This document shows positions 29,797-60,574 of a stretch of DNA of 64,000 nt, one piece after another; the first letter of the stretch is position 1; the number at the start of each line of letters is the position of its first letter. Below the pieces are notes generated by a model. It had not been told where the DNA came from and did no database searches. It was given only the letters and a program-made list of their open reading frames with translations. The DNA lies in the NCBI RefSeq assembly GCF_000801315.1, contig NZ_CP010054.1:1860001-1924000 (forward strand). Direction: 5' to 3'. The DNA is from Hymenobacter sp. DG25B. Lineage in GTDB: Bacteria > Bacteroidota > Bacteroidia > Cytophagales > Hymenobacteraceae. A program made the translations under genes and the position numbers.

Positions 29797-29802
29797 TGCT
29801 GT

Positions 29803-30250
29803 GGGTGATGAGTCTATAAGCCGGGTTTTGTCCGCGTTGCCGCGGCCCCACCATTTATCTAGGCCAGTTCTCGCGAAAAGGCTCCATCAACCTACCCGCT
29901 GGCGCCGGACGAGCCGCCCGGTGCAGGCCCGAAGGCCCACGTACCAGCTTATTTGGTCTTTCAACCCCTGAGGTTTACCCAGCCGACGCGGTTGCCCGGC
30001 CGCTGGTGCGCTCTTACCGCACCTTTTCACCCTTACCAAAGGTGAAATTGAGAATTTGTGAGATTGTGAAATTCACAACTTCACCTTTCACAACTTCACC
30101 GCCTGGCGGTAGTTTTCTGTGGCACTGGCTGTCCTGGCTTACTTTACGCTTACCAGTCCTTCCCGTTAGGAAGCAGGGTGCTCTGCGTTGCCCGGACTTT
30201 CCTCGTCGCCATTCTTGCGTAAGGCGCCGCGGTGGGGCGACCCATCACTG
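29803..30250 (-). ncRNA. rnpB: RNase P RNA, bacterial class A
   Basis: Read on the minus strand, the region has the universal RNase P RNA core: GAGGAAAGTCCGGGC near the 5' end, the GGTAAGGGTGAAAAGGTGCG and GTAAGAGCGCACC block in the middle, the GGGTAGGTTGATGGAGCC region, and AAAACCCGGCTTATAGACTC near the 3' end. P1 can be drawn exactly: GTGATGGGT (30248-30240) with ACTCATCAC (29813-29805). It is the catalytic RNA that matures tRNA 5' ends with RnpA. The P12 arm is enlarged by two direct copies of GGTGAAGTTGTGAA and their complement. The promoter box ends at 30255. Open frames across this region are not genes, but see the overlapping ORF at 30166-30768. Confidence 0.95.
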
Positions 30251-50326: not shown

Positions 50327-50404
50327 ATGACAACTCAATTGACTTTGCAGGCATGGTGGTGGCCCCTCGGAATCTCCGGACGGGACAACCTGTGCGTGCG
50401 TTAG
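50327..50404 (+). CDS. trpL: trp operon leader peptide with three consecutive Trp codons
   Basis: A 25-codon open frame, ATG at 50327 to TAG at 50402-50404, with TGG TGG TGG at codons 10-12 (50354-50362) in the context LQAWWWPLG. Tryptophan is the rarest amino acid and three in a row in so short a peptide is the classic trp leader signature. The predicted transcription start is about 27 bp upstream. The Rho-independent hairpin begins 34 bp past the stop, and trpE follows. Starved ribosomes would stall on the Trp codons and change folding of the transcript. Too short to be found by ordinary gene callers. Confidence 0.9.
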   Translation: MTTQLTLQAWWWPLGISGRDNLCVR

Positions 50405-50438
50405 AGTTGTATCAATCAACTTCGCATCGACTTAACAG

Positions 50439-50466
50439 AAAGCCCGGCCACCCGCCGGGCTTTTTT
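50439..50466 (+). terminator. trp attenuator
   Basis: Stem AAAGCCCGGC (50439-50448) with GCCGGGCTTT (50454-50463), loop CACCC, and a T-run through 50466, all upstream of trpE (50513). One antiterminator candidate is GGACGGG (50378-50384) with CCCGGCC (50443-50449), one mismatch. A perfect alternative GGTGGCC (50358-50364) with GGCCACC (50446-50452) overlaps the Trp codons. Which one forms needs folding analysis. Confidence 0.88.
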
Positions 50467-57439: not shown

Positions 57440-57536
57440 CGTCATGTCGAGCGTAGCCGAGACATCTTGCTAGTGTGGTAAATAGTTAGCACCATAACAT
57501 CAGCACGCGAGATGTCTCGGCTGCGCTCGACATGAC
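57440..57536. repeat. Class B palindrome between trpA and the DAHP synthase gene
   Basis: About 97 bp with arms CGTCATGTCGAGCGTAGCCG and CGGCTGCGCTCGACATGACA and inner GAGACATCTTGC / GCGAGATGTCTC. A partial CGTCAT half-site stands just before it at 57423. Confidence 0.88.
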
Positions 57537-58665: not shown

Positions 58666-58673
58666 TATATTTG
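58666..58673 (+). promoter_or_regulatory. Promoter -7 element (TATATTTG) of the first phhA unit
   Basis: Exact TAnnTTTG. With the rnpB spacing, transcription starts about 58679-58681, one to three bases before the leader ATG (58682), so the leader peptide mRNA would be almost leaderless. A TTTTTG at 58635-58640 is too far away (25 bp) for a normal -33 element. Confidence 0.75.
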
Positions 58674-58681
58674 CAATCAGT

Positions 58682-58771
58682 ATGCAGAACCAATCCGTGA
58701 AATGCTTTTATCTAACCCCGATTCGCAATATGCGAAACGGAGTTGGGCTGCATTGCCGGTACAGAAGCTAA
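58682..58771 (+). CDS. Leader peptide with Phe-Tyr codons for phenylalanine hydroxylase 1
   Basis: A 29-codon frame (ATG 58682, TAA 58769-58771). Codons 9 and 10 are TTT TAT (Phe-Tyr, 58706-58711) in VKCFYLTP; a second Tyr is codon 27. Codons 20-23 (GGA GTT GGG CTG) double as the antiterminator strand. A ribosome stalled at codons 9-10 leaves that strand free, while one that reaches the stop covers or passes it. A terminator and then phhA follow. No protein function is expected beyond attenuation. Confidence 0.85.
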   Translation: MQNQSVKCFYLTPIRNMRNGVGLHCRYRS

Positions 58772-58806: not shown

Positions 58807-58841
58807 AAAGCCCGACTCCTTCCAGGAGCCGGGCTTTTTTT
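58807..58841 (+). terminator. Attenuator of phenylalanine hydroxylase 1
   Basis: Stem AGCCCG-A-CTCCT (58809-58820) with AGGAG-C-CGGGCT, three-base loop TCC, T-run 58835-58841 directly touching the ATG at 58842. The competing pair is GGAGTTGGGCT (58739-58749) with AGCCCGACTCC (58809-58819): eleven base pairs with one G-U. This is a readable antiterminator. Confidence 0.9.
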
Positions 58842-59611: not shown

Positions 59612-59619
59612 TAACTTTA
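59612..59619 (+). promoter_or_regulatory. Promoter -7 element (TAACTTTA) of the second phhA unit
   Basis: One base off TAnnTTTG. Transcription would start near 59625, the A of the leader ATG, so the leader is predicted to be leaderless. Confidence 0.6.
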
Positions 59620-59624
59620 CTTCC

Positions 59625-59711
59625 ATGATTCGGCTTGTCTCCCGCTATTACGCTTATGCTTATTACGCTCCCTGCAGGAGCGGAGCGGCTATGGCGTGTC
59701 AGGGAGGATAA
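59625..59711 (+). CDS. Leader peptide with five Tyr codons for phenylalanine hydroxylase 2
   Basis: A 28-codon frame (ATG 59625, TAA 59709-59711) with Tyr at codons 8, 9, 11, 13 and 14, read as SRYYAYAYYAPC (TAT TAC GCT TAT GCT TAT TAC, 59646-59666). The antiterminator strand GAGCGGA (59678-59684) begins 12 bases after the last Tyr codon. The peptide ends AMACQGG. Such clustering is typical of amino acid leader peptides and fits control by charged tRNA-Tyr. No other role is likely. Confidence 0.9.
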   Translation: MIRLVSRYYAYAYYAPCRSGAAMACQGG

Positions 59712-59735
59712 GTACTTAACTCCGACATACTTCTT

Positions 59736-59769
59736 AAGCCTGCTTCCGCTCTGCGGAGGCAGGCTTTTT
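59736..59769 (+). terminator. Attenuator of phenylalanine hydroxylase 2
   Basis: A 13-bp stem, AAGCCTGCTTCCG (59736-59748) with CGGAGGCAGGCTT (59754-59766), one wobble, followed by T residues. The competing pair is GAGCGGA (59678-59684) with TCCGCTC (59745-59751), extendable by further pairs with one bulge. It stands 32 bp before the phhA start. Confidence 0.9.
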
Positions 59770-59800
59770 CTTTTTCACGCCTTCACATTTCCTTTTTCAT

Positions 59801-60574
59801 ATGATGTCCTCCTCTGCTTCCGTTCTCGCCGCCACCACCGCCACCGTAGCCACGCTGCCACTCATGGAGCAGCAATATGCCCACTACACCGCCGCCGACC
59901 AGCACGTTTGGCAGCTGCTGTTCGACCGCCAATCGGCGTTGCTGCCGGGGCGCGCGGCCGAGCCTTTTCTGGAAGGCCTGCGGGAAATAGGGTTTCACCG
60001 CCACGCCATTCCTGATTTTGCGGAAGTTAATCCGCGGCTAAAAGCACTTACTGGCTGGGAACTGGTGGTAGTGCCCGGCATTGTAGATGATGCCGTATTC
60101 TTTGGCCTGCTGGCCGATAAGAAGTTTCCTGCCACCACGTGGCTGCGCAAGCTGGAGCAGCTGGACTACCTGGAAGAGCCCGATATGTTTCATGACGTAT
60201 TCGGCCATGTGCCGCTGCTGATGAACCCGGAGTTTGGAGCCTTTTTGCAGGAACTAGGCGAAGCCGCTGTGCAGCATTTCCAGCGCTGGCCCGGCACGCT
60301 GGAGCTGTTCACGCGCCTGTACTGGTTCACCGCCGAGTTTGGCCTGCTCCGTCAGCCCAACGGCCTGCGCATTTACGGGGCGGGTCTGCTTTCCTCACAC
60401 GGGGAAGTAAAGTTCAGCCTCAGCGAAAAGCCTACCCGCCTGGAGTTCAGCCTGGATGGCGTGCTGACTACGCCCTTTGAGAAAGACCATTTTCAGGAGC
60501 TGTACTTCATACTGGAAAGCATGGACCAGCTAGGCGAAAGCCTGACCCAGCTTAAGGCGCGACTGGTAGAATAG
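59801..60574 (+). CDS. phhA: Phenylalanine 4-hydroxylase, copy 2
   Basis: 257 aa from the first ATG (59801). A later start at codon 22 (MEQQYAHYTAADQ) would align exactly with copy 1 and removes a Ser/Ala/Thr-rich leader. Iron ligands by the longer numbering are His131 and His136 in DMFHDVFGHVPLL and Glu179 in YWFTAEFGLL. The other motifs (GWELVVVPGIVDD, FPATTWLRK, IYGAGLLSSHGE) match copy 1, and about half of all residues are the same by eye. The same reaction is expected. It has its own promoter, Tyr leader and attenuator, so the two copies can be regulated separately. It ends at a strong terminator. Confidence 0.95.
   Translation: MMSSSASVLAATTATVATLPLMEQQYAHYTAADQHVWQLLFDRQSALLPGRAAEPFLEGLREIGFHRHAIPDFAEVNPRLKALTGWELVVVPGIVDDAVFFGLLADKKFPATTWLRKLEQLDYLEEPDMFHDVFGHVPLLMNPEFGAFLQELGEAAVQHFQRWPGTLELFTRLYWFTAEFGLLRQPNGLRIYGAGLLSSHGEVKFSLSEKPTRLEFSLDGVLTTPFEKDHFQELYFILESMDQLGESLTQLKARLVE

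Follow-up and report, generated by a model that had tools for sequence, protein, structure and literature searches.

A tyrosine-rich leader and candidate transcription attenuator upstream of the phenylalanine hydroxylase gene phhA2 in Hymenobacter

Attenuation by leader peptides has long been known for Trp, Phe, His and Thr, and a leader called aroR, attributed to Neshat in 2014, reportedly lies before aroF in C. glutamicum. T-box leaders also have a terminator as output, but they bind tRNA directly and without translation. The phhA gene of Pseudomonas is under the protein activator PhhR, in a catabolic induction.

The gene studied here, phhA2 of Hymenobacter sp. DG25B, lies in a window of 64,000 nt (the whole stretch of DNA that was analysed, whose positions are used below). 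Unlike the PhhR-controlled phhA of Pseudomonas, which is also a regulated phenylalanine hydroxylase gene, phhA2 would be subject to product-limited attenuation. Its upstream region resembles trpL and pheL of E. coli, as described in excerpts of PMC11802643, in having a short ORF rich in codons for the product, alternative 1:2, 2:3 and 3:4 pairings and a terminator before the structural gene. It differs from trp-, phe- and his-type leaders because the leader codon is Tyr alone, the gene is predicted to encode a monooxygenase making Tyr from Phe, the leader AUG is predicted at or near +1 and no Rfam family matched at gathering score. The C. glutamicum aroR is similar in its Tyr-containing leader peptide and in the attenuation of an aromatic pathway gene, but its codons are Phe-Tyr-Phe, it controls DAHP synthase and its reported response is to Phe, with none to Tyr (same excerpts of PMC11802643); a Tyr codon in a leader that reportedly does not answer Tyr implies that Tyr codons alone are no proof of Tyr sensing. 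The trpL/rnTrpL attenuator RNA of Sinorhizobium meliloti also starts at the AUG of its leader ORF, although it concerns Trp, belongs to a plant symbiont of another phylum and was shown experimentally (PMC7298713, in part). RNA-level control of tyrosine genes is listed under Tyr T-box leaders in the consulted part of PMC1262725, and these share with phhA2 a regulation at the RNA level tied to tyrosine.

No match to Rfam leader families was obtained at gathering score in the 64-kb window, where a bacterial RNase P RNA of class A was located elsewhere (29801-30248, minus strand), nor was any Rfam match at that score found in 12 loci (the phhA2 locus, the pheA region of the same genome and ten relatives). 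Relaxed thresholds gave eight sub-threshold matches, the best one to a viral element with 24 against 140 bits, and membership of an Rfam family was rejected. The T-box model was absent from the matches in the window, in the 12 loci and in the relaxed-threshold scan. In the open-access literature, from which subscription papers are mostly absent, we found neither a tyrosine-only leader attenuator nor a leader attenuator at a phenylalanine hydroxylase gene; in excerpts of a paper on Flavobacterium psychrophilum (PMC9723704), leader-peptide attenuation before amino-acid operons is mentioned in a main text that does not contain the word tyrosine. The phhA2 attenuator is most likely of a known type, with Tyr-only codons and a phenylalanine hydroxylase target that are new within the open-access literature searched.

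Our results suggest, with a probability of roughly 0.85, that phhA2 is controlled by a conserved ribosome-mediated transcription attenuator, which most likely senses charged tRNA-Tyr and is predicted to respond to tyrosine. The features of this region are the following.

59612-59619, plus strand: promoter -7 box TAACTTTA (consensus TAnnTTTG, last base differs).
59625-59711, plus strand: leader ORF of 28 codons, ATG to TAA, stop included, MIRLVSRYYAYAYYAPCRSGAAMACQGG.
59646-59666, plus strand: Tyr codon cluster Y-Y-A-Y-A-Y-Y (TAT TAC GCT TAT GCT TAT TAC).
59667-59681, plus strand: helix 1:2, GCTCC-ctgca-GGAGC, immediately 3' of the Tyr cluster.
59677-59686, plus strand: antiterminator 5' strand (region 2), GGAGCGGAGC.
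59742-59752, plus strand: antiterminator 3' strand (region 3), GC-T-TCCGCTCT, overlapping the terminator 5' arm and loop.
59736-59775, plus strand: intrinsic terminator, a 14-bp stem (59736-59766) followed by T5-C-T5.
59801-60574, plus strand: phhA2, phenylalanine 4-monooxygenase, 257 aa (NCBIfam, PF00351).

The leader lies between phhA1 and phhA2, both of them phenylalanine hydroxylase genes. The 28-codon frame with five Tyr in seven codons that an earlier note on this DNA had described was borne out by the sequence, and no other residue upstream was nearly as enriched as Tyr. The TAYTAYNNNTAYNNNTAYTAY pattern occurred once in the 4.36-Mb genome, at the phhA2 leader; as its backwards control also appeared once on each strand, the motif by itself says little, and the argument rests on conservation and position. 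A longer, 35-aa frame begins with TTG; since transcription is predicted to start just before the ATG, this form is unlikely to be produced. In 21 Hymenobacter leaders N/S was 0.24 of expectation (pairwise, not tree-corrected). Sequence, enrichment and coding constraint together point to a short ORF, predicted to be translated, with several codons for the putative regulatory amino acid. The PhhA2 protein scored above the cut-off of two NCBIfam models (NF008877, E 2.8e-80, 269.2 vs 247 bits; TIGR01267, 265.6 vs 264.75 bits), at equivalog level for phenylalanine 4-monooxygenase, a predicted activity whose expected product is tyrosine, in support of the idea that the downstream enzyme makes this amino acid.

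The predicted +1 was near 59624, leaving a 5' UTR of about 1 nt. In 28 of 54 nonredundant leaders TAnnTTT[GA] was found 3-8 nt before the leader ATG, and the other 6-nt bins of the same leaders contained a mean of 0.47 and a maximum of 3. As the sigmaA box of F. psychrophilum spans -12 to -5 (excerpts of PMC9723704), the +1 would be at the AUG or up to a few nt before it, and the distance of the -7 box from the leader ATG suggests that the mRNA is probably almost leaderless. Leaderless mRNAs make up 5.5% in F. psychrophilum, and 5' UTRs shorter than 10 nt about 3.7% in B. thetaiotaomicron, according to parts of PMC9723704 and PMC7366714; the trpL of S. meliloti is a precedent for a leaderless attenuator ORF (PMC7298713, in part).

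All 30 genomes with phhA2, found among 120 genomes of the genus, had the Tyr leader. We then compared 81 phhA loci, comprising the one in the window and 80 taken from genome contigs, which were chosen by similarity to phhA2 and not at random. A short ORF with at least 4 Tyr in 8 codons was present within 300 nt upstream in 58 of them (51 of 73 nonredundant loci), against a mean of 0.32 and a maximum of 2 in 100 dinucleotide shuffles and 0/81 on the reverse strand. Runs of Ala (20/81; shuffle mean 5.06, maximum 10) and of Ile (11/81; mean 2.14, maximum 6) also exceeded every shuffle, though by far less than Tyr; Ala codons were interleaved with Tyr in many leaders, and some leaders mixed His with Tyr. 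The arrangement of the Tyr codons drifted among loci (YYAYAYY, YYYAATYY, YYYYY, YYYHYYH, YHYHYYY), with Tyr richness maintained, and the Hymenobacter phhA2 leaders contained at most one Phe codon beside at least five Tyr.

The expectation that a Tyr-rich frame and a terminator would precede phhA was upheld among the phhA2-like loci, 62 of 81 having both a leader (at least 3 Tyr in 9) and a terminator, a count that includes weak ones (such as L042 and L048) and scores two loci (L056 and L063) as lacking a terminator because the cut-off fell inside it. By the same rule, 17 of the 81 loci had no Tyr leader. The expectation did not extend to the phylum. Across the order the leader was patchy, appearing in 6 of 40 genera that were hand-picked from 58 with a match and fetched. 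Among the phylum matches listed, at least 4 Tyr in 8 were found in 5 of 20 short-type phhA regions, in 0 of 20 long-type ones (both sets hand-picked) and in 0 of the 30 best-scoring other phhA regions (selected automatically; one of them, L125, was out of register on a short contig), and phylum-wide conservation was rejected on these counts.

The terminator stem was formed by AAGCCTGCTTCCGC (59736-59749) and GCGGAGGCAGGCTT (59753-59766), with the T5-C-T5 run at 59765-59775. A terminator with a T-run had been proposed with 13 bp; it is present, but we counted 14 bp including one G-U. The competing GAGCGGA/TCCGCTC pair was confirmed at 59678-59684 with 59745-59751, and it extends to the longer pairing of regions 2 and 3 listed above. 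The 150-nt fold of 59626-59775 had a z of -5.06, and none of 200 shuffles was as stable. In 21 Hymenobacter sequences 93.3% of the cells were paired in helix 1:2, 98.1% in the antiterminator (59677-59686 with 59742-59752) and 99.7% in the terminator. Two cells of helix 1:2, the middle pair of which was broken in 7 of the 21, and seven of the terminator had changed on both sides, and the numbers of pairs with such a change were equalled by 90 and 234 of 500 shuffles, respectively; the antiterminator had no two-sided changes, being too conserved within Hymenobacter for covariation to be informative.

A second alignment (A2) contained 19 loci hand-picked from the 41 outside Hymenobacter that had both a leader and a terminator. 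Here pairing was seen in 81.7% of the antiterminator cells and 92.3% of the terminator cells; changes on both sides affected nine cells of the antiterminator, distributed over four pairs, and 21 of the terminator. The covariation scores of both structures were above all 500 shuffles, and the two-sided-pair counts were matched by 79 (antiterminator) and 24 (terminator) of 500; the structures were taken from a single row (L064) and are therefore favoured in the sliding control. When antiterminator strands were swapped between loci, outside Hymenobacter 30 of 39 loci paired better with their own strand than the swapped combinations did on average (Wilcoxon p 3e-5), as did 41 of 54 over all loci; the swap within Hymenobacter was uninformative (7/15, p 0.43).

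A masking model, which counts antiterminator pairs with the ribosome footprint hidden at a chosen codon, gave, averaged over 53 loci, 10.1 pairs for a ribosome at the last Tyr, 3.5 for one at the stop codon and 5.0 for ribosome-free RNA, the last Tyr exceeding the stop in 49 of 53. For the sequence of the window itself the values were 13.7, 13.3 and 0.9, so that the model separated only the ribosome-free state and not the stop from the last Tyr. A ribosome at the stop codon fails to block the antiterminator in this model, and refolding after its release would be required. The region thus has an intrinsic terminator between the leader and the structural gene, and an antiterminator pairing mutually exclusive with it that is predicted to be free when the ribosome is at the regulatory codons, the stop state of the window being unseparated in the model.

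The leader, its Tyr codons, the two competing helices, the terminator and the promoter-box spacing, together with their conservation, are seen in the sequence and its comparisons; from this arrangement we infer the pausing of the ribosome, its timing and the tyrosine response as follows. Transcription would begin at the leader AUG or only a few nt away from it, and the first ribosome would load on an almost leaderless RNA and trail the RNA polymerase. When Tyr-tRNA is short, the ribosome would pause on the Tyr codons at 59646-59666; on an assumed footprint, a ribosome with the last of them in the A site would reach forward to about 59676, so that region 1 (59667-59671) would be covered and region 2 still accessible. 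Region 2 could then pair with region 3 before the 3' arm of the terminator is made, and phhA2 would be transcribed. When Tyr-tRNA is plentiful, the ribosome would reach the stop, helix 1:2 or another structure of the leader would take region 2, and the 59736-59766 terminator would form and stop transcription. More PhhA would convert Phe to Tyr, closing a product loop.

The upstream gene, phhA1, has a leader of a different type.

58666-58673: phhA1 box TATATTTG, with the AUG 8 nt behind it.
58682-58771: phhA1 leader ORF, 29 aa, MQNQSVKCFYLTPIRNMRNGVGLHCRYRS, no amino-acid run.
58739-58749 with 58809-58819: phhA1 antiterminator, read by eye.
58807-58837: phhA1 terminator hairpin, read by eye.

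The pattern scan gave the phhA1 hairpin on the minus strand only, perhaps because the T-run was counted into the stem. The phhA1 leader peptide resembled those of phhA1-type genes throughout the genus, which were run-free and 24-32 aa long, with an N/S of 0.49 of expectation (59 leaders) and with alignment gaps inside the ORF that were multiples of three in the rows viewed (every second one). Sixty other phhA regions of the genus, from 58 genomes, were inspected; the regions fetched for the genus came from all but 31 of the 119 genomes with a phhA match. A run-free ORF lay behind a promoter-like box in 49 of the 60, a selection made by a box-plus-ATG rule, so that the box spacing is no independent evidence; six had at least 4 Tyr, one of them (L223) judged spurious. 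The run-free phhA1 leader may be an arrest peptide or another sensor. More distant phhA genes of the genus (L232-L244) carried a run-free ORF of a different kind, similar to MRHQFVNCINTLMTAPKQGGYGLRLALTEEEA, between a TAnnTTCG box and a terminator-like hairpin. The claim that control of phhA2 is independent of the first copy held for sequence and leader type, phhA1 having its own box, run-free leader and terminator, but read-through from phhA1 may occur, because the pattern scan listed no plus-strand terminator-like site from the end of phhA1 (59585) to 59735.

Arrest peptides generally need fixed residues. It is unlikely that the Tyr-rich peptide acts as one, stalling in a sequence-specific manner when nascent chain and ribosome sense, for example, a pterin, a drug or one of the free amino acids Phe and Tyr, and acting through the same hairpins: the drifting order of its Tyr codons, with Tyr richness kept, and the pathway-matched codons of companion leaders in the genome (see below) argue against this, even though the conserved phhA1 leader, which shares the layout of box, AUG, antiterminator and terminator, suggests that phhA leaders can apparently work without runs of cognate codons. 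A terminator that merely ends the phhA1 transcription unit, or dampens constitutively, with an incidental leader ORF, would agree with the position of the element in the phhA1-phhA2 gap of this genome. We consider this very improbable, as Tyr leader and terminator also preceded phhA in loci where only a single phhA was seen, the leader was under coding constraint (N/S as above), the promoter box was spaced against the leader AUG and the antiterminator was conserved.

The signal itself might be Phe or the general aromatic supply instead of Tyr alone, since Phe is the substrate of PhhA and the Tyr-containing aroR reportedly answers Phe (PMC11802643, in part); the scarcity of Phe codons beside Tyr in the Hymenobacter phhA2 leaders, in contrast to the pheA leaders of the genus, which mix both, makes this the least probable reading of all, and attenuation through charged tRNA-Tyr is preferred.

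Both tyrA (PF02153) and pheA are present in the genome carrying the phhA2 leader, and PhhA2 was therefore rejected as its sole tyrosine route. Mutant fitness in Echinicola vietnamensis, a relative in the phylum, supports a tyrosine-making phenylalanine hydroxylase beside a dehydrogenase (excerpts of PMC7311316). Six genus genomes at least 99% complete had neither tyrA nor pheA, and all kept phhA2 and its Tyr leader; these genomes (G001, G003, G022, G060, G087 and G117), which retained two phhA copies, are predicted Phe auxotrophs making Tyr from Phe. Beyond these six, G097 (81% complete) likewise had no tyrA match, and G096 (81% complete) and G006 had only a weak one; for pheA (PF00800), 14 of the 120 genus genomes gave no match, namely the six already named and eight more. 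In a Fisher comparison, which takes no account of relatedness and treats G006 as tyrA-positive, tyrA-less genomes were 6/30 against 0/84.

We propose tentatively, at somewhat less than even odds, that an almost leaderless, Tyr-only attenuator runs a biosynthetic phenylalanine hydroxylase and that the Hymenobacter duplicates have split by leader type, phhA2 reading Tyr-tRNA and the run-free phhA1 peptide sensing something else through its nascent chain; in species without tyrA and pheA, this loop would govern the one route to tyrosine that was seen. If so, PhhA would be run as a biosynthetic enzyme in lineages with the Tyr leader, the leader would offer a way to report tRNA-Tyr charging in Bacteroidota, and what became of the phhA duplicates could be tested.

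Other aromatic genes of the same genome also had leaders. A WWW leader, MTTQLTLQAWWWPLGISGRDNLCVR, with a terminator-like hairpin preceded trpE (anthranilate synthase) of the trp operon at 50327-50466 of the window, and two tandem Phe/Tyr leaders, MHTPAARFYFSYYFYYGKP and MRSATAPFRFFFRYYFYYRKQRGPFCMF, preceded the pheA-tyrA operon (prephenate dehydratase, aminotransferase, prephenate dehydrogenase and DAHP synthase).

L114 4112-3823 (G000:C1 386822-387111), minus strand: tandem Phe/Tyr leaders, each with a terminator-like hairpin behind it.

At least one Phe/Tyr leader was found before pheA in 30 of 30 genus loci examined, without shuffle control, and two in 19; of the 41 genomes searched, 36 had a match, and the loci come from these. 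The WWW before trpE and the Phe/Tyr codons before pheA suggest that leader codon content follows the pathway product. Finally, an inverted repeat was observed between trpA and the DAHP synthase gene at 57441-57536 of the window, with two 30-nt arms, 93% complementary, and a 36-nt spacer.
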